Below are positions 15,190-64,000 of a stretch of DNA of 64,000 bases, piece after piece (within the stretch, counting starts at the first letter, position 1; each line of letters starts with the position of its first letter). Below the pieces are notes generated by a model. It was given only the letters and a program-made list of their open reading frames with translations. It was not told where the DNA came from and did not search any database. This DNA comes from Diplolepis rosae (taxonomy: Eukaryota > Arthropoda > Insecta > Hymenoptera > Diplolepididae), in NCBI GenBank assembly GCA_030998225.1, contig JAPYXD010000466.1, positions 7,171,001 to 7,235,000 on the forward strand. Reading direction: 5' to 3'. Both the position numbers and the translations under genes were made by a program.

Positions 15190-15896
15190 GAAAAATTTGA
15201 CCAAAATTGAAGGTTCTGGTCATTTTTAAACGAAAAAAGTGCATTTTCTCCCAGTGTGCGGCACCTTCACAGATCCTTTTAGAGGATCTTCATTGGTTCG
15301 TAGTGTTCTAAAGATTTGTGTAACCAAAATTACGTTTTTCTATCTATAATAACTTTATGATAATAACTCTGTATGCGAGCACGAGAATATGACCGAGAAA
15401 AAAAGCAAAAAGTGTGAGTTTAAAAGGTATCGAAATTAATACAATAATTTTATTTTTTAGCGTTAAAAAATAAAAAAACAATACCTATCATTGAAGGCAG
15501 TGCAGTGGTTCACCCGGTTCACCATTTGCGAAACGTCTCCACCGTTAAAGTTCTCCATTGGTTAGAGTGAGACACAACTATACTTTAGGTGACATAAAAT
15601 ACGAAACGCGAGTTTCACATAGAGGGTGAGATATGAAATGTTGAGTGCTTTTCCAAGAAAATATTAGTATACTTAGGTACAGGGAGCAAGTCTACTTTTT
15701 AAATTTGAAACCAGTAGCCAGCGAGCCTCGGTAAGGTATTAGTGGGAGTCGATGCGTGACGTCTTGTGACGTAGCGCTAATTTGATCGCGAATATTTAGC
15801 TTGTCAATCCGGTCTGAGCCGAAATTTTGTTAAGCTTAACCAATAAATATTAAATCCGATTCAGCGAGCCTATAGTCTTTATTTAAAAATTTATGG
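15190..15896. other. Intergenic DNA with a fragment of the 28.5-kb foldback family
   Basis: 15478-15592 resembles the interior of the foldback at 28261-28845 (shared GAAGGCAGT(G/A)CAGTGGTTCAC and GAGTGAGACACAACTATACTTT). Nothing else is recognisable. Confidence 0.5.
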
Positions 15897-21198: not shown

Positions 21199-21339
21199 TT
21201 TTCATGAGTCGAGGTTCCAAAGGACCCGACGTGTTTGGACGTGGAAGGAGTTGGTGCCTGAAAGTTGGAGTGATTGAATTTTTCTTTCACACCTTTTCGA
21301 GGTCCATTCTGAAAATTTGTCCCTTGTTTTATTTCGAAA

Positions 21340-34924: not shown

Positions 34925-35945
34925 CTTCTATCATACATTCAAATTTATTTCTTGTAATTTAATATTAATACTCAAGTCAATTTTATAATATTGTAAATGT
35001 GAATTAAATTTTCTCAAAGTTACTAAATTTGTTCTTGATTTCAAATGAAAAAGGAAATTCTATTGACTTAAGGCTCTTCCAGCATTAAACAAAAATTACA
35101 TGATTAAAATAATTCATTTTCTTCCAAATACTATGAACAGGAAAACAAATCATAGACATTATTTAAACGAAGAATTTTGCATTTTAACGCTTTTATCATA
35201 TCTCACATATTTTCGTTAAGAAAAGAAAGTTTTTAATTTTTCAAATCAAAACATAAAATATTCATCCTATCTAAAAATGTCCTAATGAGAATTTGTAGAC
35301 CTCATTTAGGAAAATAATTTTCCATCTCAACGTTTTTTCATTTCTCACATATTTTGTATAAAAATGGAATTTTTGAATTTTAATGGTATTTTTTAAAATT
35401 CATACGAAAAATACACCTTTTATCAGAAATAGATTTTGAATAGTATTTTCTTAAATTATAAAGAAAAATATACATCTTATAAAAAAATATTTTGATTCAA
35501 ATTTGTAGATCTTTTTGTAGCAAACAATTTTTTATTTTAACATTTTTTTCGTAATTTGTATAATTTAACTGTAAAATGGAATTTTGATATTGACTTTCAA
35601 TTTGGTTTACTCGAAAAATGTTATTAGGATAATTAGTAGAAATTTATGAACATTATCAGAAACCAACATTGTAATTTTTGATTTAAAGAAAAAAAAAAGT
35701 TTCAAAAACACAAAAAATGCCCTTATTTTCACAATTTTGGTCGTATGTGGCTAGTTAAGGAACACGTCCTTTCTTATTGTGCCCTCAAGAGGTGTACCAA
35801 ATTTCAATCCAAGTCAATAATTCATAAAAACCGTTTTTTCTGACTCAGGTGGTCTCAAAACGTAAAGATTTGATGAAAATTCCGAGAGTAATTTTTCACA
35901 TAAAACCAATACCTTCTCATATGATGAAATTGTAAAAATACAAGC
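34925..35945 (+). repeat. Diverged third copy of the X/Y transposon interior
   Basis: This matches, with clear divergence, the segments of copy X around 53830-53950 and 54575-55400. Shared strings include TTCTCAAAG, TGATTAAAATAAT(T)CATTTTCTTCC, AATGAGAATTTGTAGAC and CTCAAAACGTAAAGATTTGA. It lacks element E at the place where X and Y each carry one. It also has several degenerate ~140-bp units. No ends of the parent transposon are seen, so it is a fragment. Confidence 0.75.
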
Positions 35946-35959
35946 ATCAAAATATGCTT

Positions 35960-42800: not shown

Positions 42801-44012
42801 AAACAAAAAGCAACAAGAAATTAATTAGTTTTATTGTAAATACTTAAGTGTTATTGATTCATTTTTTTTTTATACTTTTGAGAATTGAAGTGTACATTAA
42901 AAATTATTATTTTCTTCCAGATATGAGAAAATAAAAAACTTGTAGGAATCAGACTTATTATGCAGATAATTATTAAAATATTATAAAATTAACGAACTTT
43001 CATAATCGTTTTAATGCTTTTTAGATCCTAAGAGTTGTTTCAAATCACGAGTCATGGAAAAAAAATTCTTTTCTCTATTTCTGGAAAACGTGTAAGTAAT
43101 TTATATTTAAAAAAAAAACACTTAATTTAAATTTGTATGTCAAATTAATTAAAACAACAACTTAATGCTACTAAATATTTTATGACAGGACTCTAATATT
43201 GTAAAGTTTACAAGCATGCTATTTTTATTTACTTAAATATTGACCTTGCTTTTTGCTTTCAAGAAAACGTGACTTTCCATATCACTACTGTTCTTTGCTG
43301 TTGGCATTCCGGATTTTTGAATAGCCTCTTCTCTATAAAAATATCATTATACAATAATTATTTTCTTCCATTTCATAGATATCTGAAATCAGGGTGCAAA
43401 TGCAGCAAAAAATGTAAAAGCTCGTGAATCAAATTCCCAGCGCAGTCGAAAGCGTCATTTTTTCCACAGAAAGATTTTCAAATTCTTTAAATATTGAATT
43501 TATTTGCATTATTTGCGATATAAGAGTTTGAAATTGTCTACGAGGACACCTGTCGACAACGTATCCTATCTGATACGCGACTAGTGATCCTCCGATAATG
43601 TAGGCAGTGACAAAAATTTCAAACTCAACTAATTAATTTGAAAATTTTAAATTCTTTAATATTAATAAAAGTACACAATCAAAAGAGAAATCTGAATTTA
43701 AAGTAAAATTCCCGAGATTTCTCAATTTCTTCATTGCCACAGGCATCCTGGAAATCATTATAATTGCGAGGAAAATATGTACCCCCTAAAAATATATTAT
43801 TTCATTTTTATAAATTCTTTTACAACATCAAATTTGTTGTCAATCACATTTTTTACTATTTATTTTTCAATTATTTTTTATACATATATTCTCAAGGCAA
43901 AAATATAGATTCTAAAAAGTTGAATTGATTCTTGTGGATTAAAATCTTACATTCTTGCAGCGATTCCTTGCCGGAACTTCGGAGTTCGCCAGGATGTATC
44001 TTCGGATGCCAT
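36876..44012 (-). CDS. MED15: Mediator complex subunit 15 (ARC105), 12 exons, complete
   Basis: MED15 is the Mediator tail subunit that links activators to RNA polymerase II in the nucleus. Coding exons (minus): 44012-43951, 43332-43245, 42636-42585, 42513-42325, 41138-40867, 40792-40658, 40587-40469, 40408-40329, 40192-40034, 38870-38582, 38469-38367, 37205-36876. All introns are GT-AG and phases agree, giving 1878 nt, about 625 residues. Exons 1-3 encode the activator-binding KIX domain ('EDTSWRTPKFRQGI', 'SSDMESHVFLKAKSK', 'EEYLGFVARLILHVREM'). Exons 4-8 are low-complexity Gly/Met/Gln/Pro-rich linkers. Exons 9-12 are the conserved MED15 C-terminus that docks in Mediator ('RRLMKYIDPLRKMV', 'PLETLQKCEIVLEKM', 'VPADYPLTPPRC', 'QFSVSQLLDTWEMSVRQA'). 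The start is the first ATG before the KIX motif. The glutamine tracts are short compared with fly or human MED15. A SINE lies in intron 1 and a small foldback in intron 4. Confidence 0.95.
42000..42188. mobile_element. Small foldback MITE in a MED15 intron
   Basis: TTAAAGGCATGTAATTGACC at the left and the complementary TATACCCTTAA region at the right pair imperfectly. Arms contain ATCCAATACTTTTCATG and CATGAAAAGTATTGGAT. TTAA at both ends may be the target duplication. Confidence 0.65.
43400..43505 (+). mobile_element. tRNA-derived SINE copy 3, in MED15 intron 1
   Basis: The degenerate B box GTGAATCAAATTCCC (43424-43438) is followed by the family tail GAAAGCGTC, T-run, CCACAGAAAGATTTTCAAA, TTCTTTAAATATT. 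Antisense to MED15. Confidence 0.6.
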
Positions 44013-44695
44013 CTTTGTTACAAAATTCTGGTATAAGAAATACCTTTTATTAGATGCTGCAGTAGATTGTTATAAATAATAAAATTCTTGAAAGTAAAGC
44101 AAATTTCCAAAAAAATCAGTACTATTCTCAATAAATAAATAAACATAAAGTCCCAAGTACTTAAATTATGAGTATTCTTTCAAAATGTTATTTACTACCC
44201 AATTAATCATTGAAAATTTGGTAAAAAGATTATAAAAAGGTCAAGTTTGTTAGTTTTTCTTATATACTGCTGCGTAAGTCTTAAGTTTGCAATGAAAGTT
44301 TGTTTACATACCTATATACATATATGCACACATAATTTTTACTAAATTTCAGTCTATTTTATAAATATATATTTTGATATAGTAAAAAAATTAATACCTG
44401 TGTATAATTTAAAAAGTAGAATGTAATTTCAGACATTAAGAAATGTTTATAATATTAATAAATAGTAAGTTCTTACCTTTTTTTTTAACTTGCCTTGTGA
44501 ATATGTTTATCCTACTTGACACAAACTTTAACGAAAATTGAATTTTTAATACAATTTAAGACAAAATTTAACTGAAATAAGCTCAAAAACTGATACTTTT
44601 ATATGGTTTTATAGTTTGTGTCTGTATACAATTCAGAGCAGCACAAAAATTAGAATGCATAGTGAAAGTGAAGAGGTTAGGTATGTATGATGCTG
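44013..44695. other. MED15 upstream region
   Basis: The 5' UTR and promoter of MED15 are presumably here. I see no clear TATA box and cannot place the transcription start. AT-rich, no frames. Confidence 0.4.
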
Positions 44696-44863
44696 CAGTG
44701 ATCCCAGAACGTGGGAGCTGGCGGCCCCCACCATAGTCCCCAACAGTTCATGGCTTCTTCCTCGCTCGACTGCCATAGGTTTGTTGAATGAGGAAGACAC
44801 AATGAGCTCGAGGCATCTATGGTGGGGGCCGCCAGCTCCCACGTTCTGGGACTGGGATCACTG
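44696..44863. mobile_element. hAT-type MITE copy 2 (168 bp), perfect TSD TGATGCTG
   Basis: Same terminal sequence and arms as 32786-32947 (CAGTGATCCCAGAACG, GGCGGCCCCCACCATAG). It is flanked by TGATGCTG at 44688-44695 and 44864-44871. It carries a 6-bp extra copy of GGGACT near its right end (CTGGGACTGGGATC). Confidence 0.95.
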
Positions 44864-44879
44864 TGATGCTGATGATGCA

Positions 44880-44990
44880 CAGGGTTGTGAGCATTGTGAG
44901 CGATGAAACGTTTCATTGAAACATTGAAATTCTCACGTGAAATTTTTCAATTTTTCACGGTTACGTTCGTTACGTTTCATAGACCTTTTC
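44880..44990 (+). mobile_element. One end of a hAT-type element (CAGGGTTGTGAGC)
   Basis: CAGGGTTGTGAGC followed by ATGAAACGTTTCATTGAAAC and a CACGTGAAA motif. The reverse complement of the same terminal sequence occurs at 63258-63360. The other end is not adjacent. Confidence 0.55.
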
Positions 44991-45522
44991 ATCTTGAATA
45001 TTTTTTGGTGCGCATGCGTCTCGAATAATTCAAGTTCCGGTGAAGATTAGGTCATTTCAGTGCAAAGTACATTACGAATTGGCAATAATATTATTTAAAA
45101 AATAATTTGATAAAGTTTAAGTAGAAAAGTGAGTAAAAAAAAAATTTATTTACAAAGTTGATATCTTAACTTCAAATTGTGTGAAAATATAATTTAAGGT
45201 TGCCATATTCTCGAACCAAAATCGAAGTCTCGTCATCAACTTCTTTATGTTACTGTCATTTTATCTTATTTCCCACATTCGTAAAAATATCTGTATTAAA
45301 TTAAAAATATATCAACTTCTTTCTTTTTAAACGATTAATTTGCACAATAAAACGAAACCAACAGGCAGTAATACGAAATAATACGTACAAATATTATTTG
45401 TTTGGAAATAATTATTTTTTTATTTGAACATTTATCTTCGAGAAAAGGCAGCGTTACATATATATACAGAGTATATTTCTTCAGAAAATTTTATAAAAAA
45501 TACTTTTTCTTTATTATAACTC
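44991..45522. other. AT-rich intergenic DNA, nothing recognisable
   Basis: No frames, no repeats with clear ends. Confidence 0.5.
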
Positions 45523-45868
45523 CCCTATTGAAAATTTCTATGTAGGATACCACATAGGATCTCATATAGGATCTTACATAAGTTCCTATGTATTTTAAAG
45601 TAATAATTTTCGCCTTTACATTCTAATTCAAAATTTTCTGAATAATCTGATCTATCAGGATGCTAGCAGCAGAATTTCATTAATGAGTTACTAAATACAT
45701 TTTAACGATATTTTTTATTATAAAAAGAAAATAATATAGATCAGATTATTTAGAAAATTTTGAATTAGAATGTAAAGTTGAAAATTATTACTCTAAAATA
45801 CATAGGATCTTATGTAAGATCTTATGTAAGTTCTTATGTGGTATCCTACATAGGATTTTTCAATAGGG
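45523..45868. mobile_element. Foldback element, 346 bp, with TATGTAGGATACC subrepeats
   Basis: CCCTATTGAAAATTTCTATG at the left is mirrored by CATAGGATTTTTCAATAGGG at the right. Arms of ~140 bp contain several AGGATCTTACATAAG-type subrepeats and pair through GATCAGATTATT. The central loop is ~70 bp. Confidence 0.85.
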
Positions 45869-46438
45869 TCATTAAATATAAATTTCCACATCACCTAACG
45901 CCTTCTAATTAACAATTAAATACTTCACCATTTTCATAAAAAAAGTAGATATTAGTTCAAATATACTACTTTTTATCATTAAAACTACAAGTGCCAATCT
46001 GATTTTTAAACTTTTTATATTATTACATTATTTTTCATAGAATATTTACATGAGAAAGCATACATCACGCATCATGAAAGCATAACCTCTCACCTTGCAA
46101 TTAAATCGTGTTTTCTTCCTGTAGTCAGTTGTTTTCGACAACTCAGCCACCTTCGCAGTTGTTCACTGCTGTTGCTTTCCACTTTTCTATGTGGCAATAT
46201 TGCACCCGGTACATCTTTCTCCTTTAAATTTATTTTTGAATGAGGTACACTTGCAGCACACATGTCGATATCCAAAATATGACCTAATTTATGAATTTCG
46301 CGGGAAGTGCCATGGCAGCCGCGTATGCGCACATCAACTTCCTATTCAAGATGAAAAGGTCTATTGCTTCATGATGATTTCGCGGGCGAGAGGGGAAAAA
46401 TTTATCTGCGCATGAGCAGATGCCAAGTCAGGTTAAAC
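45869..46438. other. Intergenic, with a GCGCATGAGCAGA-type repeat
   Basis: The segment 46388-46438 (ATTTATCTGCGCATGAGCAG) recurs inverted at 62685-62715. Otherwise no features. Ends in CAGGTTAAAC, which recurs at 61014-61023. Confidence 0.45.
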
Positions 46439-46709
46439 GGTAGGTATACATTGTACCATAGTCTTAGTTGCCCAAAGTTTCAATTGCCCATAAAATCACT
46501 AGACGTCACTATATTTGAAAAGCAGTGTTAGACGAAGATTATGAAAGGAATGTGTTGGCAAAAACTGCGAGGATTGCAAGATGCAGGATTCCTGTACATT
46601 TGATATATACTTGCAATTTTTTCCAACGCATTCCTTTCATAAACTTCGTCAAACACTGCTTTTCAAATATAGTGACTTCTGGTGATTTTATGGGCAATTG
46701 AAACTTTGG
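46439..46709. mobile_element. Foldback MITE of the 15033 family, cut at its right arm by transposon Y
   Basis: It starts GGTAGGTATACATTGTACC like 15033-15189 and shares AGTTGCCCAAAGTTT. Unlike that copy it folds back over ~120 bp (CCTTTCATAAACTTCGTC, GGGCAATTGAAACTTTGG). The right arm stops where transposon Y begins at 46710; the expected right terminus is missing. Confidence 0.8.
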
Positions 46710-47364
46710 CAAAGATATTATAAACCTAGATGCGGCCAATTATAGTTCGGTAGACTTAAATGTAGACGTCGCTTTCGGCGTGTTTTTCCCGGTCCCCTCT
46801 TGCCTCTCACCCCGCCGTATGATCAATCCGAATTAGTTCCTCGAAAGCATTATAGAGGCGCTAAATGTATCTCCCTCCAATCCCCTCCACCCGCTGAGAT
46901 ACCCAATAACCAGAAAGCGCGCTTTAAAAATTTAAATTTAAATTATATATATTGAAGAAAATTAAAAATTGGTAAACAAAGCAAGGAAAAGCGACGTGTA
47001 AAGTGTTTCAATGTTACTTTATGTGTATTTTATTTTGCTTTATAGTATCATTTTGATATTGAAATAGGTTACAGTGAACATGCATTGCTAAATTAACTTT
47101 CTGTCAGTGAAAGATAAGTATGTACATGAATGAAAAACCAATATTTAATTATTATAATTTGAACATGTATGCAATAGAAAGAGAATTAGTTTCTTATTTT
47201 TAAAAAGTTTAATTTCTTATTTTCGTATTTTTAATTCTTTTTTTTACATTCTCATCATGGATGAGAAGGTATTGGTTTTATGTGAAAAATGACTTTCGAA
47301 ATTTTCATATCAAATCTTTACGTTTTGAGACCCCCTGACTCAGAAAAAACGGTTTTTACGAAAG

Positions 47365-47385
47365 TGTCTGTCTGTCTGTCTGTAG
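47365..47385. repeat. (TCTG)n microsatellite in Y, mirrored in X at 55287-55308
   Basis: A run of TCTG/CTGT units within the conserved part of the C segment. Its complement is in X. The neighbouring block CTCAAAACGTAAAGATTTGA is the best conserved part of the family across all three copies in the window. Confidence 0.8.
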
Positions 47386-47689
47386 TAGGCCATGTGCGGC
47401 AACACTCTCGATAGGATTATCAGATTGAATTGAGCTTTGGCACACTTTATCGGAGCCGAAAAAGTAAGACAACTTCGTTAACCAGCCACATCCAATCAAA
47501 ATTGAGGGATTGAGCACTACTTTTGTGTTTTTTGAAAATAACTTTTTGAAAAAATTAAAAATTTCAATACTGGTTTTTGATATTGCTCATAAATCTCTAC
47601 AAATTATCCTGATAACGTTTTTTGATTAAATCAAAATTATAAATGTTACAGCATATTCAAATTAAAAATAAAACCAATACCTTCTCATC

Positions 47690-48290
47690 CATGATGAGAA
47701 TGTAAAAAGTCAATATCAAAATTCCATTTGCCAGTTAAATTATACGAGATACGAAAAAACGTTATGATACAATATTATTGAATACATAAAGACCTACCAA
47801 TTTGATTTATAACATTTTTTCATAAGATGCATATTTTTCTTTTTAATTAAAAAAAAATCTATTGAAAATCCAAAATTCAATTTTTTAACAATAATATGTG
47901 AAATACGAAAAAAACGTAGGATTACAAAATTGTTCGTTTCAAAAAGTTCTACAAATTTTGTCTTATACAGTTTCCAATAAAACATATATTTTTCGTTTCA
48001 ATTCCAAAAAATACGATTAAAATTCGAAAATTCCATTTTTTAGACAAAATATGTGAGATACAAAAAAACGTTTAGATGGAAAATTGTTTGCCTGAATGAA
48101 GTCTACAAATTCTCATTAAGACATTTCGGGACAGGATGTATATTTTATGTTTTAATTTTTAATATTAAAAAATTTCGATTTTTTTCACCAAAATATCTGA
48201 TACGAAATAAGCGTTGTTCTGCAAAATCGTTTCCTTGAATAAAGTCTACGATTGTTTTTTCTTTTTGAGAGATTTGGAAGAAAATAAATT
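47690..48290 (-). repeat. Degenerate ~140-bp tandem array in transposon Y (about 4-5 units)
   Basis: Units share a consensus like AAATTC(C)ATTTTTTAGAC, ATATGTGAGATAC(A/G)AAAAAACGTT and AAGTCTACAAATTCTCAT. The matching array in X (about 54700-54985) is ~270 bp shorter, about two units. The third copy at 35060-35700 has its own set of units. A cluster of GAAGCGCGAGCG-type sequence follows at 48340-48360. Confidence 0.7.
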
Positions 48291-49881
48291 ATTTTAATCA
48301 TGTAATTTATTAAAAAGTTACAGAAATGTATACAGAAAATCGAGCGCGAAGCGCGAGCGTCATGATGAGAATGTGTTCCTTAAGGCTGATAGAGCCTTAA
48401 GTAAATTGAATTTCCTATTTCACTTAAATTCAAAAAGAAATAGAGTGCACTGAGAAAACTGGAGTGTCAAACTTTAAGTGTCAAAATGTAGATAGTCAGT
48501 CTGAACTTCTAGATAGTACAACACTCTTTCCAAAATTTTTTCTTTTTGGTCAGGGAGACACTCATTTGATATTCTGCTTAACTGTTACCAGAGTGTCAGA
48601 ATCACTATAAAGAGTGTCGATTGGCGAAATACGCGCCAAAATTGAAAAGTCACGTGGGTTCGCCTATTTTTCCTCCAATATCACCAGCGTGGACTCTAAC
48701 CTCATTGCCGGTTTCGCGTCCTTTACATGTTAAAGTGTCACGAGGGTTATTTTTGACAACTAATTGGCGAGTACCTATTTCACTTGTTATAATAACATAA
48801 TAATTGTGAAAGCTTAAATGTAATAGTTTTGAGGTTAGCCATAGAGGTAGATTATAGTATATTTTTCACTCTTCGATAATCTATTTTTCTCTCTGCGATG
48901 ATCAACTTTTCCCTCTAAAGTCAAAGATATTATAAACCTAGATGCGGCGAGTGGCCTCGGAGTGGGAGAACGATATATATAGAACATCACTCTTTCTTGG
49001 GTATCGAGGTGCTGCCCTCTTCACAACTTTCAGACGTTTCCATGGCGACGCGTGTTTCACGCAGTGTCTTCTGAATTCGAAAACACGGAGATGCTCGAAA
49101 ATCTTCGGGAGACTTCGGCTCTCTCCTTATTTCGTCTATATATAGCATATACGAAATAAAGTAAAAGCAAGCGTTCCCAAACTTTCTGAGTTTCTGCGAT
49201 TTCTTCGATTCGATGTCTCATGCATCTCGTCGTCTGCTCGCCCGGTGACTTCTGTTTACAAAATTTGACAGCTGACAAATTTTGTAAAAAGTCTTAAATA
49301 ATTTGATGACGTGACATAAATTTTATGAATTTCAGGAAATGTTAAATAATTCTTTCGAGTGTGTGATCTACAAGGACTATTTATTCGAAGCTATTTGTTT
49401 GTAGAATTTAAATGCAGAATTTGAGGTTAGGTTCATAACCTGTTGTATTCAAGTAGTTTTATTTTTTAACTTTCTTTGATTTCACTCAATTGATTTTGAA
49501 TATTATAAATTCAAAACGTTAATTAATTGCATTTTTATGTAAATTTTAAAAATAATAATCATTTTTAATCAATAAATTCTGTTATAATTACCTTTCTTGT
49601 AATTCTATTTTATGAGAATATAAAAACACTCCTTTAAAGATAAAATGTGGAAACCTAGCTTCAAGTTTGCTTACGTAGGAAAAACTTTGCAGCCGACCCG
49701 AAATTTATGAAATAACTAAATAAATAATTACTTACAGGAAATAACTATTTAATATTCATTCTTACCTATACCTTATGGTAATAAAGTACATCTATGAAGG
49801 GAAAAATTGTTACTGTCAATATTTTTGGTCGAAATGAGAAATTGAAATTTTGAGTTTAGAATTTAAATCCAATACTCTTAC

Positions 49882-52319
49882 AGTCTTGCAAATGAAAATT
49901 AAATTACAGTTATTGAAATTTTACAAAAGTACAATGTAAATCAGATGAATTAATGATACAATAATCTAAAAATGAAAGAGTTTTAAAATGGTTTGAAATC
50001 AAAATTTTTTAATTTTCAAAGGCTTTTTTAAGGCTATAAGTGCTTTTTACAGGTGATTAATTAAAAGCTTACCTTACTTAAAAGTTGGGAATATTTAAAT
50101 AAAAAGATCTACGCAAATAATTATAGTAGTTCCTCTTAACAAAAATTTTAATTGCAAACAATTCCAATTGTAAAATATCCTCGATTTTCAAGCGTTTTTA
50201 AAATAAATCTATATAATTTAAAGTAATTTTAGTTATATATCGAAAAAATTGAAATAGTCCTCGGACTTTAGAAAACTAGAAAATTTATTCATCGAAATCA
50301 TTTCAAATTGCATTTAATGAAATATTTCAAATGAAACAATTATTTTTTGTGCCCTCTTTTGAGGATATTGTTAGAATTTCCTTTTCTCACAATTTTACTG
50401 GGAATTCTTATATAAATCAGGATCATCTTCGGTAAGTACGCTTTATTTCACTCTCTAAATCAAAATAAGTGCACTCAGAAAAAAGATTTGATTGAATCAA
50501 AGAAAATTATTTGCTTGAAAGACTTTCTTTGATTTAAAGAAATGATTTGTTTAAATGAAATAACATTTTTTTAATTCAAACATAATGTCTTTAAACGAAA
50601 TAAATATTTGTTTGAATCAAATTAATTTTTCTTCAAAACAAAGAAATTAATTCAATGATATATGGTCAAAGATATAAATTGTTTGATTGAAGGCAGAAAT
50701 TTATTTGATTCGAACAAATATTTATTTGGTCCAAAGATATTTTGTTTGAATCAAAAAAATTTTGTTTCATTAAGGTAGTTTTCATCCACGAAAAGTAAAC
50801 CTCAGGCAAAAATAGATAATTTTGCTTTCAAGAATAACAATATTATTATTGAAGGTCTATTTTGGAAGAGAAAAGATTAATTCCCATGAAAAAAATTTGA
50901 AATACAGAAAAATAATTTTATTAATAAATTTTATTTTTGCCCCAACTTTTTTTCTTATCGCTTCTTACCAAATTTCAAAAAATTATGCAATTCTAATAAA
51001 TCATGAATCACTTTTACAGAGAAAAGATTTCCCACAACTTAACCATTTCCAATTTTCGAAAATTAATAAATTATTATCAAATTCAGCAATTTGTTTATAA
51101 AAATTTCGTTTTGGAAAATGTTTTTTTATTGGTTTCAGCCATTAATGAATTTATTTTTAAAAATCAGAAACGGTGAAGTTGTGGAAAATCTTTTCTCTGA
51201 AAAAATGATTCATGATTTATTAGAATCGCATAATTTTTTAAAATTTGATAAGAAGCGATAAGAAAAAAAGTTGGGTCCAAAATAAAATTTATTAATAAAA
51301 TTATTTTTCTGTGTTTTAAATTTTTTTTATGGAAAATAATCTTTTCTCTTTCAAAATAGCCCTTCAATAATAATATTGCTATTCTTAAAGGCAAAATTAT
51401 CAATTTTTGCTTGTTCGAATCAAATAAATTTCTGCCTTCAATCAAACAATTTATATCTTTGACCATATATAATTGAATTAATTTCTTTGTTTTGAAGAAA
51501 AATTAATTTGATTCAAACAAGTATTTATTTCGTCTAAAGACATTATGTTTGAATTAAACAAATTTCATTTCATTTAAACAAATCATTTCTTTAAATCAAA
51601 GAAAGTCTTTCGCAAATAATTTCTTTGATTCAATCAAATCTTTTTTCTGAGTGCACTTATTTTGATTTAGAGAGTGAAATAAAGCGTACTTACCGAAGGT
51701 GATCCTGATTTATATAAAAATTCCCAGTAAAATTGTGAGAAAAGGAAATTCTAACAATATCTTCAAAAGAGGGCACAAAAAATAATTGTTTCGTTTGAAA
51801 TATTTCATTAAATGCAATTTGAAATGATTTCCATGAATAAATTTCCTAGTTTTCTAAAGTCCGGGGACTATTTCAATTTTTTCGATATATAACTAAAATT
51901 ACTTTAAATTATATAGATCTATTTTAAAAACGCTTGAAAATCGAGGATATTTTACAATTGGAATTGTTTGCAATTAAAATTTTTGTAAAGAGGAACTGCT
52001 ATAATTATTTGCGTAGATCTTTTTATTTAAATATTCCCAACTTATTCAATTTAAAATTGGAAATATTACTATTAAGCAATTTTCAATACCTCATTATTTT
52101 TTAATCTGCCCACTTATGATTTTCTTGTAAGCTTTTAATTAATCACTTGTAAAAAGCACTTATAGCCTTAAAAAAAGCCTTTGAAAAATAAAAAAATTTT
52201 GAGTTCAAACGATTTTAAAACTCTTTTATTTTTAGATCATTGTATCATTAATTCATCTGATTTACATTGTACTTTTGTAAAATTTCAATAACTGTAATTT
52301 AATTTTCATTTGCAAGACT
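49882..52319. mobile_element. Foldback U1 (2.44 kb) within X
   Basis: AGTCTTGCAAATGAAAATTA begins the left arm and its complement ends the right arm. The centre near 51130 is again palindromic (GTGCACTCAGAAAAAAG at 50471 mirrored at 51655). The same element, U2, sits at the same place in Y. The arms contain many GATTTGATTGAATCAAAG-like short palindromes. The open frames near 50822-51466 are arms read in mirror image. Confidence 0.85.
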
Positions 52320-53408
52320 GAGCACACTACTTTCTCGAGTCGCGGGTCGCGGGGAAGGTCGGAAGCACCGAAATCTCGAGTGAAATTGAAAACCGAGCCC
52401 CAGCAAAGCTTGCTAGCGAAGGAGCGCGAGCCAGCTTAGATTTTAGCCAAAACCGAAAATCACGGCGCGGTGAACTTTTTTGAGAAAACTTTGGTTTTAA
52501 AAATTCAATGGTAAAATAAGGAATACAAATTTTTTAAATGAATTTTAGTTTGATTATTTAATTATTTTATAATTGTTTTCATTTTTAATTAATTTAATTC
52601 CATTTATTTTAAAAGAACCCCAACATCTTAAAATAATGATTAATATGCGGCGAGGATATACTTCGTTGAATAAAAAATTATGTAATAAAAATTTTGTTCA
52701 AAGAACAAAATCGTTTATTTATTGAATCAAATTTTTTAGTGAATCTATCTAATATTTTACATTCAATTAAAATAAATATTTGATTGGATATATTAAAGAA
52801 AAATTTGGTGAGTCATACATTAACCAAACTGTCCGAAACAATAATTATAATATAAAGTAACATAACATTTTTTTTTAATATTTACATTAAAATGTAACAA
52901 ATGTAACAAATTAAGTAATTTATTAGGTATAATTTTTGTTAGAAAGTTTTAGTTTTATTTTTTTAATTCTCTTTAAATATTGAAAAACGTTTATAATAAT
53001 TTATTTGCAGCATTTGGCATAGTTTTAATGAAATTAATATAAATTATTCATATTTTTTTGATGAGACAAAGTTTCCAAAAAGAAAAGCTGCTGAATATAT
53101 TCAGAAATCAGTTAACATTTATTGTACATAAATAAATTCATTTGAGTTTTTTTGAAAAACATTGATCTATTTTTTTTTCAGAAAAGTGTGGAATTATCAC
53201 TTTTTTAATAAGAAAATACAAGAACTAGCCATAACTTACAATGAGATTTTAAAACATTCTGACTAGTGTGAGTCAAACAAATATTTTAGAAATTACAAAT
53301 TATTGAGCTTCGGACAACCTACTTCTTTAAATTTTCAAAAAAAATTTCTGTAAACATTGAGCTTAAAGAAGGAGAAGACTTCAACATTTGAACTGGTAAG
53401 ATATTGAT

Positions 53409-53620
53409 TTAAGGGTATGTGATACTTTACCTTGAAAGCAATTTAGTTTACACAGTTGTTTTTCCACAATTTTGAATTTATCAAAAAAATAATAGTGCCG
53501 AGACGTAAAGAAAATTAACACTGACGTCTGTGCACTATTATTTTGTTGAAAAATTAAAAATTGTGGAAGAACAACTGTGTAAACTAAATTGCTCTTATGG
53601 CAAAGTATCACATGCTCTTA
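53409..53620. mobile_element. Foldback MITE with TTAA ends, copy in X
   Basis: TTAAGGGTATGTGATACTTT at the left mirrors AAAGTATCACATGCTCTTAA at the right. TTAA is a likely target duplication. Arms of ~90 bp include GTTTACACAGTTGTT. Confidence 0.8.
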
Positions 53621-53953
53621 AGTCTAAATTTTTAATTAACTAATTAATTTAAAATTTTATTTTTAAAATTGTAATTATTAATTTGAATAATATTTGAAAA
53701 GAATAAAAATCCTGGAAACTAGAAGTTGTTCATAATGAAAAATCTGCGCGCAGCTCGCTTCGCTCGCAAGTTTGAGCGCGCGATTTGATCGTCGTGCTTC
53801 GCGCTCCGTTCTTGTGCTCTTCACATACATTCAAGTTTATTTATTATAATTTGATACTAAAGCTCAAACCAATTTTATAATAATATTACAGATGATGTGA
53901 ATTACATATTTTCTCAAAGTCACTCAATTTCTTTTTGAATTTAAGTGAAATAC

Positions 53954-54561
53954 ACTGAGAAAACTGGAGTGTCAACCTAAACATTTGGAGGGTGAAGCAG
54001 ACTATATTTGAGCTTAAACTATAAGACAGCCTTCTAGATAGTGTAACTTATTACCTGTGAATTGTGAAAATAAGATGGTCAACTTGAATACTTTAGAGGG
54101 AAAAGTTGATCATCGCAGAGAGAAAAATAGATTATCGAAGAGTGAAAAATATACTATAATCTACCTCTATGGCTAACCTCAAAACTATTACATTTAAGCT
54201 TTCACAATTATTATGTTATTATAACAAGTGAAATAGGTACTCGCCAATTAGTTGTCAAAAATAACCCTCGTGACACTTTAACATGTAAAGGACGCGAAAC
54301 CGGCAATGAGGTTAGAGTCCACGCTGGTGATATTGGAGGAAAAATAGGCGAACCCACGTGACTTTACAATTTTGGCGCGTATTTCGCCAATCGACACTCT
54401 TTATAGTGATTCTGACACTCTGGTAACAGTTAAGCAGAATATCAAATGAGTGTCTCCCTGACCAAAAAGAAAAAATTTCGGAAAGAGTGTTGTACTATCT
54501 AGAAGTTCAGACTGACTATCTACATTTTGACACTCAAAGTTTGACTCTCCAGTTTTCTCAG
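53954..54561. mobile_element. Element E, intact copy in X (608 bp)
   Basis: The ends CTGAGAAAACTGGAGTGTCA and GACTCTCCAGTTTTCTCAG are inverted repeats. The copy in Y is split by X: 48450-48921 plus 55968-56102, together 607 bp. It contains the uncut CTAAAGT used as target by X. Confidence 0.88.
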
Positions 54562-56419
54562 AGCCTTAAGGAACACATTCTCATCATGACGCTCGCGCTT
54601 CGCGCTCGATTTTCTGTATACATTTCGGTAACTTTTTAATAAATTACATGATTAAAATAATTTATTTTCTTCCAAATCTCTCAAAAAGAAAAAACAATCG
54701 TAGACTTTATTTAAGGAAACGATTTTGCAGAACAACGCTTATTTCGTATCACATATTTTGGTGAAAAAAATCGAATTTTTTTAATATTAAAAATTAAAAC
54801 ATAAAATATACATCCTGTCCCGAAATGTCTTAATGAGAATTTGTAGACTTCATTCAGGCAAACAATTTTCCATCTAAACGTTTTTTTTGTATCTCACATA
54901 TTTTGTCTAAAAAATGGAATTTTCGAATTTTAATCGTATTTTTTGGAATTGAAACGAAAAATATATGTTTTATTAGAAACTGTATAAGGCTTTATATTGG
55001 TTTTATTTTTAATTTGAATATGCTGTAACATTTCTAATTTTGATTTAATCAAAAAATGTTAACAGGATAATTTGTAGAGATTTATGAGCAATATCAAAAA
55101 CCAGTATTGAAATTTTTAATTTTTTCAAAAAGTTATTTTCAAAAACACAAAAGTAGTGCTCAATCCCTCAATTTTGATTGGATGTGGCTGGTTAACGAAG
55201 TTGTCTTACTTTTCGGCTCCGATAAAGTGTGCCAAAGCTCAATTCAATCTGATAATCCTATCGAGAGTTATGCCGCACATGGCCTACTACAGACAGACAG
55301 ACAGACACTTTCGTAAAAACCGTTTTTTCTGAGTCAGGGGGTCTCAAAACGTAAAGATTTGATGAAAATTTCGAAAGTCATTTTTCACATAAAACCAATA
55401 CCTTCTCATCCATGATGAGAATGTAAAAAAAAGAATTAAAAATACGAAAATAAGAAATTAAACTTTTTAAAAATAAGAAACTAATTCTCTTTCTATTGCA
55501 TACATGTTCAAATTATAATAATTAAATATTGGTTTTTCATTCATGTACATACTTATCTTTCACTGACAGAAAGTTAATTTAGCAATGCATGTTCACTGTA
55601 ACCTATTTCAATATCAAAATGATACTATAAAGCAAAATAAAATACACATAAAGTAACATTGAAACACTTTACACGTCGCTTTTCCTTGCTTTGTTTACCA
55701 ATTTTTAATTTTCTTCAATATATATAATTTAAATTTAAATTTTTAAAGCGCGCTTTCTGGTTATTGGGTATCTCAGCGGGTGGAGGGGATTGGAGGGAGA
55801 TACATTTAGCGCCTCTATAATGCTTTCGAGGAACTAATTCGGATTGATCATACGGCGGGGTGAGAGGCAAGAGGGGACCGGGAAAAACACGCCGAAAGCG
55901 ACGTCTACATTTAAGTCTACCGAACTATAATTGGCCGCATCTAGGTTTATAATATCTTTGCTAAAGTATTCAAGATGACCATCTTATTTTGACAATTCAC
56001 AGGTAATAAGTTACACTATCTAGAAGGCTGTCCTATAGTTTAACCTCAAATATAGTCTGCTTCACCCTCCAAATGTTTAGGTTGACACTCCAGTTTTCTC
56101 AGTATGACTTTGAGAAAATATGTAATTCACATCATCTGTAATATTATTATAAAATTGGTTTGAGCTTTAGTATCAAATTATAATAAATAAACTTGAATGT
56201 ATGTGAAGAGCACAAGAACGGAGCGCGAAGCACGACGATCAAATCGCGCGCCCTAGGCGCGCTCAAACTTGCGAGCGAAGCGAGCTGCGCGCAGATTTTT
56301 TTCATTATGAATAACTTCTAGTTTCCAGGATTTTTATTCTTTTCAAATATTATTCAAATTAATAATTACAATTTTAAAAATAAAATTTTAAATTAATTAG
56401 TTAATTAAAAATTTAGACT

Positions 56420-56631
56420 TAAGAGCATGTGATACTTTGCCATAAGAGCAATTTAGTTTACACAGTTGTTCTTCCACAATTTTTAATTTTTCAACAAAAT
56501 AATAGTGCACAGACGTCAGTGTTAATTTTCTTTACGTCTCGGCACTATTATTTTTTTGATAAATTCAAAATTGTGGAAAAACAACTGTGTAAACTAAATT
56601 GCTTTCAAGGTAAAGTATCACATACCCTTAA
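56420..56631. mobile_element. Foldback MITE with TTAA ends, copy in Y
   Basis: Reverse-orientation counterpart of 53409-53620, with almost no base differences. This shows that the X and Y copies separated recently. Confidence 0.8.
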
Positions 56632-57720
56632 ATCAATATCTTACCAGTTCAAATGTTGAAGTCTTCTCCAATTTTAAAGCTCAATGTTTACAGGAATTTT
56701 TTTTGAAAATTTAAAGAAGAAAGTTGTCCGAAGCTCAATAATTTGTAATTTCTAAAATATTTGTTTGACTCACACTAGTCAGAATGTTTTAAAATCTCAT
56801 TGTAATTTATGGCTAGTTCTTGTATTTTCTTATTAAAAAAGTGATAATTCCACACTTTTCTGAAAAAAAATAGATCAATGTTTTTCAAAAAACTCAAATG
56901 AATTGATTTATGTACAATAAATGCTAACTGATTTCTGAATATATTCAGCAGCTTTTCTTTTTGGGAAACTTTGTCTCATCAAAAAAATATGAATAATTTA
57001 TATTAATTTCATTAAAACTATGCCAAATGCTGCAAATAAATTATTATAAACGTTTTTCAATATTTAAAGAGAATTAAAAAAATAAAACTAAAACTTTCTA
57101 ACAAAAATTATACCTAATAAATTACTTAATTTGTTACATTTGTTACATTTTAATTTAAATATTAAAAAAAAATGTTATGTTACTTTATATTATAATTATT
57201 GTTTCGGACAGTTTGGTTAATGTATGACTCACCAAATTTTTCTTTAATATATCCAATCAAATATTTATTTTAATTGAATGTAAAATATTAGATAGATTCA
57301 CTAAAAAATTTGATTCAATAAATAAACGATTTTGTTCTTTGAACAAAATTTTTATTACATAATTTTTTATTCAACGAAGTATATCCTCGCCGCATATTAA
57401 TCATTATTTTAAGATGTTGGGGTTCTTTTAAAATAAATGGAATTAAATTAATTAAAAATGAAAACAATTATAAAATAATTAAATAATCAAACTAAAATTC
57501 ATTTAAAAAATTTGTATTCCTTATTTTACCATTGAATTTTTAAAACCAAAGTTTTCTCAAAAAAGTTCACCGCGCCGTGATTTTCGGTTTTGGCTAAAAT
57601 CTAAGCTGGCTCGCGCTCCTTCGCTAGCAAGCTTTGCTGGGGCTCGGTTTTCAATTTCACTCGAGATTTCGGTGCTTCCGACCTTCCCCGCGACCCGCGA
57701 CTCGAGAAAGTAGTGTGCTC

Positions 57721-59750
57721 AGTCTTGCAAATGAAAATTAAATTACAGTTATTGAAATTTTACAAAAGTACAATGTAAATCAGATGAATTAATGATACAA
57801 TGATCTAAAAATAAAAGAGTTTTAAAATCGTTTGAACTCAAAATTTTTTTATTTTTCAAAGGCTTTTTTAAGGCTATAAGTGCTTTTTACAAGTGATTAA
57901 TTAAAAGCTTACAAGAAAATCATAAGTGGACAGATTAAAAAATAATGAGGTATTGAAAATTGCTTAATAGTAATATTTCCAATTTTAAATTGAATAAGTT
58001 GGGAATATTTAAATAAAAAGATCTACAAATAATTATAGTAGTTCCTCTTTACAAAATTTTTCTTCAAAACAAAGAAATTAATTCAATTATATATGGTCAA
58101 AGATATAAATTGTTTGATTGAAGGCAGAAATTTATTTGATTCGAACAAGCAAAAATTGATAATTTTGCCTTTAAGAATAGCAATATTATTATTGAAGGGC
58201 TATTTTGAAAGAGAAAAGATTATTTTCCATAAAAAAAATTTAAAACACAGAAAAATAATTTTATTAATAAATTTTATTTTGGACCCAACTTTTTCTTATC
58301 GCTTCTTATCAAATTTTAAAAAATTATGCGAATTTAATTATTCATGAATCATTTTTTCAGAGAAAAGATTTTCCACAACTTCACCGTTTCTGATTTTTAA
58401 AAATAAATTCATTAATGGCTGAAACCAATAAAAAAACATTTTCCAAAACGAAATTTTTATAAACAAATTGCTGTATTTGATAATAATTTATTAATTTTCG
58501 AAAATTGGAAATGGTTAAGTTGTGGGAAATCTTTTCTCTGTAAAAGTGATTCATGATTTATTAGAATCGCATAATTTTTTGAAATTTGGTAAGAAGCGAT
58601 AAGAAAAAAAGTTGGGGCAAAAATAAAATTTATTAATAAAATTATTTTTCTGTATTTCAAATTTTTTTCATGGGAATTAATCTTTTCTCTTCTAAAATAG
58701 CCCTTCAATAATAATATTTTTATTCTTGAAAGCAAAATTATCTATTTTTGCCTAAGGTTTACTTTTCGTGGATAAAAACTACCCTAATGAAACAAAATTT
58801 TTTTGATTCAAACAAAATATCTTTGGACCAAATAAATATTTGTTCGAATCAAATAAATTTCTGCCTTCAATCAAACAATTTATATCTTTGACCATATATC
58901 ATTGAATTAATTTCTTTGTTTTGAAGAAAAATTAATTTCATTCAAACAAATATTTATTTCGTTTAAAGACATTATGTTTGAATTAAAAAATTTTTATTTC
59001 ATTTAAACAAATCATTTCTTTAAATCAAAGAAAGTCTTTCAAGCAAATAATTTTCTTTGATTCAATCAAATCTTTTTTCTGAGTGCACTTATTTTGATTT
59101 AGAGAGTGAAATAAAGCGTACTTACCGAAGGTGATCCTGATTTATATAAAAATTCCCAGTAAAATTGTGAGAAAAGGAAATTCTAACAATATCCTCAAAA
59201 GAGGGCACAAAAAATAATTGTTTCATTTGAAATATTTCATTAAATGCAATTTGAAATGATTTCGATGAATAAATTTTCTAGTTTTCTAAAGTCCGAGGAC
59301 TATTTCAATTTTTTCGATATATAACTAAAATTACTTTAAATTATATAGATTTATTTTAAAAACGCTTGAAAATCGAGGATATTTTACAATTGGAATTGTT
59401 TGCAATTAAAATTTTTGTAAAGAGGAACTGCTATAATTATTTGCGTAGATCTTTTTATTTAAATATTCCCAACTTATTCAATTTAAAATTGGAAATATTA
59501 CTATTAAGCAATTTTCAATACCTCATTATTTTTTAATCTTTCCACTTATGATTTTCTTGTAAGCTTTTAATTAATCACTTGTAAAAAGCACTTATAGCCT
59601 TAAAAAAGCATTTGAAAATTAAAAAAATTTTGATTTCAAACGATTTTAAAACTCTTTCATTTTTAGATCATTGTATCATTAATTCATCTGATTTACATTG
59701 TACTTTTGTAAAATTTCAATAACTGTAATTTAATTTTCATTTGCAAGACT
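57721..59750. mobile_element. Foldback U2 (2.03 kb) within Y
   Basis: Same ends and flanks as U1 (TGTGCTC on one side, GTAAGAGTATTGG on the other), in opposite orientation. About 400 bp shorter, mostly in the left arm around 58030-58070. Confidence 0.85.
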
Positions 59751-60418
59751 GTAAGAGTATTGGATTTAAATTCTAAACTCAAAATTTCAATTTCTCATTT
59801 CGACCAAAAATATTAACAGTAACAATTTTTCCCTTCATAGATGTATTTTATTACCATAAGGTATAGGTAAGAATGAATATTAAATAGTTATTTCCTGTAA
59901 GTAATTATTTATTTAGTTATTTCATAAATTTCGGGTCGGCTGCAAAGTTTTTCCTACGTAAGCAAACTTGAAGCTAGGTTTCCACATTTTATCTTTAAAG
60001 GAGTGTTTTTATATTCTCATAAAATAGAATTACAAGAAAGGTAATTATAACAGAATTTATTGATTAAAAATGATTATTATTTTTAAAATTTACATAAAAA
60101 TGCAATTAATTAACGTTATGAATTTATAATATTCAAAATAAATTGAGTGAAATCAAAGAAAGTTAAAAAATAAAACTACTTGAATACAACAGGTTATGAA
60201 CCTAACCTCAAATTCTGCATTTAAATTCTACAAACAAATAGCTTCGAATAAATAGTCCTTGTAGATCACACACTCGAAAGAATTATTTAACATTTCCTGA
60301 AATTCATAAAATTTATGTCACGTTATCAACATTATTTAAGACTTTTTACAAAATTTGTCAGCTGTCAAATTTTGTAAACAGAAGTCGCCGGGCGAGCAGA
60401 CGACGAGATGCATGAGAC

Positions 60419-60707
60419 CATGGAGACTAGGTATAAGGAGACCAATCTCCATATATCTATTCCCGAAATGAAGTTCTGCTAAGTACATAGTTACAAAACT
60501 TCCCGATGAGGGCATGTATGTTCCCTGGGTGCAAAATGTCGATGCCCAAGACGCGATGCTTATAAGCCGTGGATGCCGCCATTTTGCACTCAGGTAGCAC
60601 ACGTGCCCTCATCGGGAAGTTTCCTAATTAAGTACTTGGCAGAACATCATTTCCTGTTTTGTGAAGTACGGCCATAAGAGATTGGTCTCCTTATATCTAG
60701 TCTCCAT
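60419..60707. mobile_element. MULE-like MITE (289 bp) in the right arm of Y, 9-bp TSD
   Basis: It starts CATGGAGACTAGGTATAAGG and ends CTTATATCTAGTCTCCAT. It is flanked by GCATGAGAC and GCATGCGAC (60410-60418, 60708-60716). Copy X lacks it at the matching site (near 49220), which gives a clean unoccupied site. The 9-bp duplication suggests a Mutator-like mobiliser. Same family as the dimer at 62732-63249. Confidence 0.9.
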
Positions 60708-61095
60708 GCATGCGACATCGAATCGAAGAAATCGCAGAAACTCAGAAAGTTAGGGAACGCTTGCTTTTACTTTATTTCGTAAATGCTATATATAGACGAA
60801 ATAAGGAGAGAGCCGAAGTCTCCCGAAGATTTTCGAGCATCTCCGTGTTTTCGAATTCAGAAGACACTGCGAGAAACACGCGTCGCCATGGAAACGGCTG
60901 AAAGTTGTGAAGAGGGCAGCACCTCGATACCCAAGAAAGAGTGATGTTCTATATATATCGTTCTCCCACTCCGAGGCCACTCGCCGCATCAAGGTTTATA
61001 ATATCTTTGGTACCAGGTTAAACAGGTGGATGCCAGATCATGACACATATATTTGAATTGCACTCGATTCAAACTTTTCCACTACCTATGTTCAA

Positions 61096-61241
61096 GGTGC
61101 CGTCCCATGTGGGCGCAAAATTCAAAGCAGAAAACGAACAGCCAATTACAGAAAACGTTTAGATTTCTTTCTTCTTCAAGGTGATCTGTAATGGGATATT
61201 CGTTTTCCGCTTTTCGCTTTGCGCCCACATGGGACAGCACC
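61096..61241. mobile_element. Hairpin MITE copy 2 (GGTGCCGTCC family)
   Basis: Same arms and loop as 25725-25870 (CATGTGGGCGCAAA, AAAGCAGAAAACGAA, AGATTTCTTTCTTCT). Independent point differences in each copy. Confidence 0.8.
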
Positions 61242-61270
61242 CTCAGACGACGAATTTTGTCGTTTTCGCA

Positions 61271-61303
<33 letters not shown>

Positions 61304-62498
61304 GTCTTGCGCTAGAGATGTGAAGAGTATGTATTTTTTGTTCATCGGATGTGCGAATGTGTTTATACCATGCGTAGCCTATGATGTGTGATTCGGCGTG
61401 ACGATTGACTTTAGATATACTCAATTTGTTCCGTAGCGGCTCGTGCCGCCGAGATTTGAAAAGAGGAGAGAGAGAGCCAGTGCGTTTTTGTGTGTGCTTT
61501 TTTATGCATGATTAGTCAGTCGCAATTAAGAAGCCCTTGAGTAAAGCTCATGTGAAAAAAGTGTATCATCCACCTACTTGTATCTTGTTTCTACAAGCCA
61601 GGTGCATACCTTCTCCTTTATATAGCGTTTTAGTGACGCAATAATCGATACAACATTCAATTTATTTGAATGTAGCAAGCGCTGAAAGCTTGTACGCTTA
61701 AATATTATTTAACAACTGATTACTGTTAAACGTAGTGAATAATAAAGAAGGACAAGGGGTTTTTATGTCGCAAGGCTTTTCCTTTTGAAGCAATTGAAGG
61801 CTCAAAAATTGTGTTTAATTCTTAAATCCTGTCACACCACAAAAAAAATATTATAGACATGAAGTTCGGGAATTATACCATGTTAGTAAAGTTTCCGACT
61901 ATACAACCACAATTTGAAACTTTGAAATGTTTCAATACATCCCCAAAGTCTCATGGAACTTTAAATTAGGCCAAAGTATAATGAATATTATTTGAGGGTG
62001 TCTTCACGTCATTTTACCAAAGAAGATTTTCTATTTCCTGCTAAGTAATATTCGATATTAACCTAAACAATTTTGATCTTCCAATTAAAATAATAATTTT
62101 TTTTGCACATTTTCTCCCCCGATAAAATTTATTTTTCCCGGATTGATTTCGGCCTATTGGCAATTTTCTTGAATCGTTAAAATCATTGTTAAGTATAGAA
62201 ATAAACAGAACCACATATGTAAACAATGCATCTCGACACTTAGTTTCGGCCATATTGGATCATGTGACCATCGTGAATTTGGAAAGCCACGCCTCCATGT
62301 CCGATCCCAATAGGAGCGCGTAATCGCGTATAAGTGGGAACATCCAATCGTTAGAAAGAGAGAGGCGAGGTTGACGAATCTTAAGGCCGTGACAGCGTAT
62401 TTTTTTCAAGTCGTTCGCACATGCGTATCGCGTCATGAAAGAGAAAAAAACTAATTCGATTCTCTTTCTTCTTTATCTCTGCCTGGCATCCACTTTTG
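61242..62498. other. Intergenic, with a (TC)n microsatellite
   Basis: A TC run of ~30 bp at about 61273-61302. A 70-codon frame on the minus strand (62253-62041, starting MAETKCRDALF) has an ATG but no recognisable domain or neighbour support. 62240-62400 is GC-richer. Nothing else found. Confidence 0.45.
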
Positions 62499-62662
62499 TA
62501 AGGATCCTCTATGGAAGGATGGGACAATGTTCCCCCACTGAGCCCTCTACTATAACAATTTGATCGGAAGTGACGTCATACGTATTCTTGATCGTCTAAA
62601 ACAATAACACGTATTAGGCACGGGGTTTGTCGCATGTCGCATCCTTCCCTAGAGGATCCTTA
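62499..62662. mobile_element. MITE (164 bp), perfect 8-bp TSD CACTTTTG
   Basis: It starts TAAGGATCCTCTA and ends TAGAGGATCCTTA. CACTTTTG is on both sides (62491-62498, 62663-62670). Inner arms include GGAAGGATG and CATCCTTCC. hAT-like by duplication length. Confidence 0.92.
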
Positions 62663-62731
62663 CACTTTTGTAAACGGACCTGACATCTGCTCATGCGCAG
62701 ATAAATCTTTCCCCTCTTGCACCCAATCATT

Positions 62732-63249
62732 ATATAAGGAGACCAATCTCCATATATCTATTCCCGAAATGAAGTTCTGCCAAGTACATAGTTACAAAAC
62801 TTCCCGATGAGGGCATGTGTGTTCCCTGGGTGCAAAATGGCAACGCCCATTACATGATTCTTATAAACCGTGGATGGCGCCATTTTGCACCCAGGGAACA
62901 CACGTGCCCTCATCGGGAAGTTTCCTAACTGAGTACTTGGCTGAACTCCATTTCGTGTTTTGTGAAGTACAGCCATAAGAGATTAGTCTCCTTATATCCA
63001 TTCCCGAAATGAAGTTCTGCCAAGTACATAGTTACAAAACTTCCCGATGAGGGCATGTGTGTTCCCTGGATGCAAAATGGCAACGCCCATTACATGATGC
63101 TTATAAATCGTGGATGGCGCCACTTTGCACCCAGGGAACACACATGCCCTCATCGGGAAGTTTTGTAACTATGTACTTGGCAGAACTACATTTCGTGTTT
63201 TGTGAAGTACAGCCATAAGAGATTGGTCTCCTTATATCTAGTCTCCATG
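62732..63249. mobile_element. Tandem dimer of the MULE-like MITE, TSD CAATCATT
   Basis: Two head-to-tail copies meet near 62995. Each has AAACTTCCCGATGAGGGCAT and its complement around a hairpin, with TTTGCACCCAGGGAACAC. Only one pair of CAATCATT repeats (62724-62731, 63250-63257) flanks the pair, so the dimer moved or formed as a unit. The first copy is closer to the second than either is to 60419-60707. Confidence 0.88.
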
Positions 63250-63257
63250 CAATCATT

Positions 63258-63360
63258 CATGAATCGTGCATGAAACAATGAAACTTTAACCGTGGAAAAT
63301 TGAAAATTTCCACGTGAAAGTTTCAATGTTTCAATAAAAAAATTTATCGCTCACAACCCT
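63258..63360 (-). mobile_element. Second CAGGGTTGTGAGC-type hAT terminus
   Basis: Reverse complement of the terminal motif at 44880 (AGGGTTGTGA, TTGAAACATTGAAA, CACGTGGAAA). The CAATCATT target of the dimer lies at its inner side. Confidence 0.55.
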
Positions 63361-63495
63361 ACTACTGATAGCATTTGCATATAAAGGGTTTCCCAATAGG
63401 GGTGATATGATTTTGAATGTCCCTATCGGGCTCATTTGAACTGAAATTTTTGACGTCTGCTGTCAGTTGTCATCAGTAAGGTTTGCCATTTAATC

Positions 63496-64000
63496 ATGAG
63501 TAGTTTCACGCTTCCACAACGTTTGGAAATTGTCCAATTATTTTATCAAAATTCGAGAAGTTTTGTCGGTGTTCAAAGAGCATATCGTGCAAAATATGGT
63601 CGTCATTCTGCTCCATCCGCGCTCTCTATTCGTCGAATAATCGATAAGTTGGAGAGTGAATTTACTCTATTGGATACTAAGCCTAAAAATCGTATGCGTA
63701 CCGCACGTTCTCCACAGAATATAGCCGCCGTACAGGCCAGTATCGAGGAAAACCGTGAATTGTCCGTGCCACGCCGATCTCAGGAATTGGGCCTGTCCAG
63801 GATGACTACCTGGCGTATTTTGCGATTCTGGCCCAAGAACTGAAGCCTAATGACCATCGTTTGCGTCGGGAGTTCGCGGATTGGACTCTGGAATCAATTG
63901 AAAATGATCCCAATTTTTATCAAAAAATCATCTTTTCTGATGAGGCGCATTTTTGGCTCAAGTCTCGGGGGACATTTGGCCGATATATTGTTTAAATCAT
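63496..64000 (+). pseudogene. Tc1/mariner-superfamily transposase, frameshifted, near window end
   Basis: The ATG at 63496 opens a 116-codon frame: helix-turn-helix part 'FTLPQRLEIVQLFYQNSRSF', 'GVQRAYRAKYGRHSAPSALS' and 'LGLSRMTTWRILR'. A short deletion and frame change lie near 63822. The second frame then reads from 63828 'LAQELKPNDHRLRREFADW' to 'KIIFSDEAHFWLKS', where Asp is a catalytic residue, and stops at 63993. The N-terminus is of the DUF4817-like type seen in insect mariners. It is a sister of the copy at 25096-27374. A terminal AAAGGGTTT lies at 63384. The 3' end is outside the window. Confidence 0.88.

Follow-up and report, generated by a model that had tools for sequence, protein, structure and literature searches.

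A DNA transposon apparently nested in an inverted member of its family, probably within a palindromic MITE upstream of the probable MED15 start codon in Diplolepis rosae

We describe a nest of transposable elements in Diplolepis rosae (assembly GCA_030998225.1, contig JAPYXD010000466.1), located in a stretch of 64,000 nucleotides that is referred to below as the window. The sequence strongly supports a self-insertion, in which one element, here called X, entered a member of the same family lying in inverted orientation, here called Y. For the nest as a whole, we consider it very probable that a palindromic MITE came first, that Y entered the MITE, and that X then entered Y in inverted orientation. 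The parts of this history that can be read from the sequence are the ends of the elements, the 7-bp duplication of X, the uninterrupted homologous site within X and a 9-bp duplication that brackets the nest.

Results

Terminal Repeats and the Inner Element

A 17-base end motif is found in the 64,000-nt window exactly at 46710, 48922, 55960 and 61009, twice on each strand, all four being the positions given in an earlier note on this DNA. The conserved end is 27 bp long (CAAAGATATTATAAACCTAGATGCGGC) and is located at 46710 (+), 48922 (+), 55960 (-) and 61009 (-), with 0, 0, 0 and 1 mismatches. When up to three mismatches were allowed, four occurrences were found in the window, compared with a mean of 0.00 and a maximum of 0 in 100 shuffles. 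The pairing of 48922 with 55960, as that note had proposed, delimits an element of 7039 bp with CTAAAGT abutting both of its ends:

48922..55960 (+): X, inner complete element, 7039 bp, with 27-bp TIRs at both ends and CTAAAGT on both flanks
48915..48921 (+): left copy of the target-site duplication of X, CTAAAGT, directly outside the end of X
55961..55967 (+): right copy of the target-site duplication of X, CTAAAGT, directly outside the end of X

Any given position would carry this heptamer by chance with a probability of about 9e-5. The ends of the family and the 7-bp length of its duplication are taken from the two full copies available, X itself and Y through its match to X from end to end.

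Outer Element and Its Alignment with X

On both sides of X lie the two parts of Y, inverted in relation to X:

46710..48921 (-): first part of Y, similar to the right end of X (BLAST match to 55960-54090, 98.6-99.1% in three blocks)
55968..61009 (-): second part of Y, similar to the left end of X (BLAST match to 48922-54096, 96.8-98.6% in four blocks), with the TIR of one mismatch at 60983-61009

After removal of X and one copy of CTAAAGT, Y measures 7254 bp. The interrupted element between 46710 and 61009 had been described as a copy equal in length to X; it is indeed a copy of the family, matching X from end to end, but the lengths differ (7254 vs. 7039 bp). Aligning X with the reverse complement of Y, a check suggested beforehand, gave an end-to-end match at 98.9% identity: across 6523 columns there were 72 mismatches, and of the 22 gaps seven were longer than 20 bases. 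The aligned columns amount to 92.7% of the length of X and 89.9% of that of Y. The description of the segments as occurring once on each strand is only roughly right, because each element is partly an inverted repeat itself and X and Y each have private pieces.

The point of Y at which X is located has an uninterrupted counterpart within X:

54090..54096 (-): single target heptamer inside X, ACTTTAG on the + strand, a paralogous empty site with ungapped alignment through the junction

The block spanning this point is 608 bp long, gapless and 98.7% identical. With the heptamer single at 54090-54096 and a 7-bp duplication around X, the clear reading is that X transposed into Y. The earlier proposal of one family member inserted into another in opposite orientation has strong support from precise TIR ends, the duplication and the paralogous empty site.

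Geometry of the Inverted Repeats

Along the strand, the order of the segments is A (46710-48921), B (48922-54096), A' (54090-55960) and B' (55961-61009), with A' repeating A and B' repeating B in inverted orientation; the heptamer of the target site accounts for the few bases that neighboring segments share. The pairing of A with A' involves about 2 kb in three blocks, separated by a spacer of 5.2 kb, and that of B with B' joins 48922-54096 to 61009-55961 across a spacer of 1.9 kb. The earlier estimate of hairpin arms exceeding 5 kb came close, the B and B' arms being 5175 and 5049 bp long, but the match is made up of four blocks with gaps between them. Because the repeats cross in the order A-B-A'-B', either A and A' or B and B' may pair, and not both in one simple hairpin; the interpretation of the region as a giant palindrome was wrong and is rejected here.

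The same geometry bears on whether the nest is a segmental inverted duplication of one element, made with no transposition at all. We regard such an origin, which would fit two adjacent copies about 99% identical, as extremely improbable, since the A-B-A'-B' order, the precise 7-bp duplication and the completeness of both inner TIRs are not what a simple duplication produces.

An imperfect palindrome was also found within the element itself:

49881..52320 (no strand assigned): internal imperfect palindrome of X, with outer arm blocks at 96-97% and 79% over a self-match of 2080 columns

In Y, the internal palindrome is shorter (57720-59751), 478 bp of one arm being absent or never having been there. 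Elsewhere in the window, the segment 28970-29437 has weak similarity (66-69%) to the core of the palindrome of X, a core that possibly originated as an independent palindromic element. A divergent remnant of the X/Y family is located at 34932-35952; it is about 71-92% similar in pieces and devoid of the family ends.

One further insertion distinguishes the two copies, X having an uninterrupted site at the corresponding point:

60419..60708 (no strand assigned): MITE of 290 bp present only in Y, with 8-bp flanks CATGAGAC and CATGCGAC, alike at 7 of 8 positions

Two tandem copies with a period of 240 lie at 62733-63251; their relationship to this 290-bp MITE was seen with a BLAST query (60424-60713) that lay five bases off the element.

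Two long stretches of the X-Y alignment are devoid of substitutions, one of 774 columns (52110-52884), the longest, and one of 690 columns (55271-55960); if gaps are also taken to end a run, the top two are 714 and 599. The 774-column run exceeds the uniform expectation (P 0.006, 2000 random placements) in a test that was chosen post hoc and that ignores rate variation. Local gene conversion between X and Y is possible, and the run is only a hint of it. With 72 substitutions and 22 gaps between them, the arms are not fully homogenized.

The MITE Probably Holding Y

The left 7-bp flank of Y, ACTTTGG, is unlike the right one, GTACCAG. The left flank is part of a palindromic MITE, which was recognized together with its duplication; neither the mismatch of the flanks nor the MITE is mentioned in the earlier note:

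46439..46709 (+): left part of the palindromic MITE holding Y, with TIR GGTAGGTATACATTGTACC; a second copy is at 15033-15189
46430..46438 (+): left copy of the 9-bp target-site duplication of the MITE, AGGTTAAAC
61015..61023 (+): right copy of the 9-bp target-site duplication of the MITE, AGGTTAAAC, five bases past the end of Y
61011..61014 (+): possible TACC remnant of the right end of the MITE, adjoining the 9-bp duplication and too short to be proof by itself

On the plus strand, AGGTTAAAC is found in the window only at 46430 and 61015; about 1.4e-4 occurrences would be expected in 25 given positions. The second copy of this GGTAGG MITE has a shortened right arm and a perfect 9-bp duplication:

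15024-15032 and 15190-15198: MITE duplication GAAAAATTT, perfect 9-bp match

We provisionally take the MITE holding Y to be of MULE type, a type mobilized by a Mutator-type transposase, from the length of its duplication, 9 bp at both copies (GAAAAATTT and AGGTTAAAC).

Because AGGTTAAAC is present on both sides of the nest, Y most likely lies inside the MITE, between flanks that would be continuous chromosome. At 61010, the MITE has most likely lost the greater part of its right end, at most TACC being left, and the right 7-bp duplication of Y is presumably missing there as well. If the MITE was symmetrical, the loss would total about 35 bases, about 30 from the MITE together with the 7-bp duplication.

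The bracketing duplication also bears on the nature of Y and on the assembly. Y could be a recombinant, formed by ectopic exchange between two family copies, with flanks of different origin and hence no duplication of its own. Its mismatched 7-bp flanks are in line with such an exchange, as is the precedent of Galileo in Drosophila, for which the available portions of PMC2775673 describe ectopic exchange and copies at inversion breakpoints with exchanged duplications. Nevertheless, the 9-bp duplication of the MITE on both sides makes it most likely that the flanks belong to one insertion site; we therefore set aside the view of Y as a rearrangement breakpoint of the Galileo kind and consider a recombinant Y very unlikely. 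We give equally little credence to an assembly artefact, in which two copies or two haplotypes were misjoined in inverted order. Assembly is difficult where long inverted repeats are nearly identical, but here each of the four ends coincides exactly with a TIR end, the 7-bp duplication of X is perfect, 72 substitutions and 22 gaps separate X from Y, and the 9-bp duplication is on both sides of the nest.

Position Relative to MED15

A gene for MED15 is encoded in several exons on the minus strand at 36879-44012:

36879-37211 (-): Med15_C, Pfam
38581-38880 (-): Med15_M, Pfam
42583-42636 (-): N-terminal KIX piece of MED15, Pfam, 16.7 bits, below the cut-off
43245-43331 (-): N-terminal KIX piece of MED15, Pfam, 42.5 bits (cut-off 24.1)

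The KIX scan covered the minus strand of 42575-46709 and 61010-64000. The first coding exon (MASEDTSWRTPKFRQ...) likely starts near 44012, a position that was picked from among four matches of a motif. Measured from this probable start codon, the upstream distance is about 2.4 kb to the MITE and about 2.7 kb to Y. A location of the nest between coding exons of MED15 is disfavored, since the Pfam domains and the probable first exon all have coordinates below those of the nest, which may be inside an intron of the 5' untranslated region. Other ORFs of the window include one bearing an RT (423-1757), a Pao-type one (9595-10824) and another with an RT (19855-21201). Among the 10 window ORFs submitted to Pfam, six had a family match.

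Discussion

Proposed History of the Nest

The first step would be the landing of the palindromic MITE, with a 9-bp duplication. Y, a large element with 27-bp TIRs and devoid of recognized genes, would then have entered the MITE, and finally X, about 99% identical to Y, would have transposed into Y in inverted orientation, duplicating CTAAAGT. The movement was probably by cut-and-paste, with a transposase supplied in trans. During the insertion of Y or after it, a small deletion at its end would have removed the right 7-bp duplication and about 30 bp of the MITE. That a deletion should start exactly at the terminal base of Y calls for a particular cause; cleavage there, followed by faulty repair, may have produced this loss.

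Against this history, Y has no 7-bp duplication, and AGGTTAAAC has a further, minus-strand occurrence in the window, at 56038. On the other hand, the left flank of Y read outward (CCAAAGT) and the duplication of X (CTAAAGT) are alike at six of seven bases, a similarity noticed post hoc.

Class of the Element

In terms of class II features, the 27-bp TIRs lie exactly at the ends, and a duplication of fixed length is represented by 7 bp at X with no match at Y, these being the two full copies available. A transposase of its own, needed only for an autonomous member, was not found in X by Pfam. The search of X in six frames, with stops masked and E values up to 0.1, gave no Pfam match, so that X is at most non-autonomous. 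Between 45000 and 63000 there are seven ORFs of 80 aa or longer; for the four of them submitted, Pfam likewise returned 0 families each. The TIR had no match in IMG/VR contigs, a collection in which the family is not expected, and no mention of the four end strings of the X/Y family was found in published papers of the one literature collection searched.

Non-autonomous elements are classed largely by their ends and the length of their duplications in Repbase, and an example command given there seeks hAT families with 7-bp duplications (available text of PMC4455052). By duplication length, X shares its 7 bp (CTAAAGT, in X only) with Galileo, of the P superfamily. In the portions of PMC2775673 and PMC4168063 available to us, Galileo is rich in inverted repeats, makes 7-bp duplications (8 bp in three D. 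willistoni copies), has TIRs of up to 1.2 kb and includes copies without the transposase segment. The duplication consensus that appears in PMC4168063 is GTANTAC (GTAGTAC, GTATTAC). Here, by contrast, the duplication is CTAAAGT and the TIR 27 bp; since CTAAAGT departs from the consensus, the family is not filed as Galileo. No Pfam domain of any kind, and thus no P-type transposase, was detected in X, although a non-autonomous member could still belong to that superfamily. The AAAGT within the duplication of X is misplaced relative to the P-type target motif in the available text of PMC4168063 and was given no weight.

Dada elements make duplications of similar length (6-7 bp) and target small RNA genes, but the members Dada-U6 and Dada-U1 are without TIRs in the sections of PMC3706591 at hand, whereas a 27-bp TIR is present here. 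The window had 0 Rfam matches at gathering score and 0 ARAGORN genes, and a TIR with no Rfam or tRNA match does not fit Dada as described there. The Tetris foldback element of Drosophila virilis resembles the present family in being rich in inverted repeats, apparently non-autonomous and placed by duplication length instead of transposase; according to the available part of PMC4079207, it differs in having 8-10-bp duplications, vs. 7 bp here, and tandem repeats of about 220 bp within its TIRs.

Self-Insertion and Its Possible Consequences

Insertion of a TIR element into its own kind, as seen here, is also known for transposons derived from the P element in Drosophila, such as P{lacW} (available text of PMC4744444), but those are engineered P elements, whereas the element here has no recognized transposase.

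The earlier note predicted breakage, gene conversion and double-stranded RNA for such structures. By their size, the two inverted repeats that cross in the nest (about 2 kb and about 5 kb) could plausibly give rise to hairpin RNA or to rearrangement. A more far-reaching scenario, which we consider improbable, is that the family prefers CYAAAGT targets, as the likeness of the duplication of X and the left flank of Y might suggest, and carries one in its own body, so that it would tend to nest within itself and create crossing repeats, which near MED15 could yield dsRNA and silence the family.

The nest is a real but fairly ordinary product of transposons, and the kind of event is already known. 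It represents a clean case of self-insertion in a DNA transposon family, in which the duplications reveal the probable order of arrival: MITE, Y and X.
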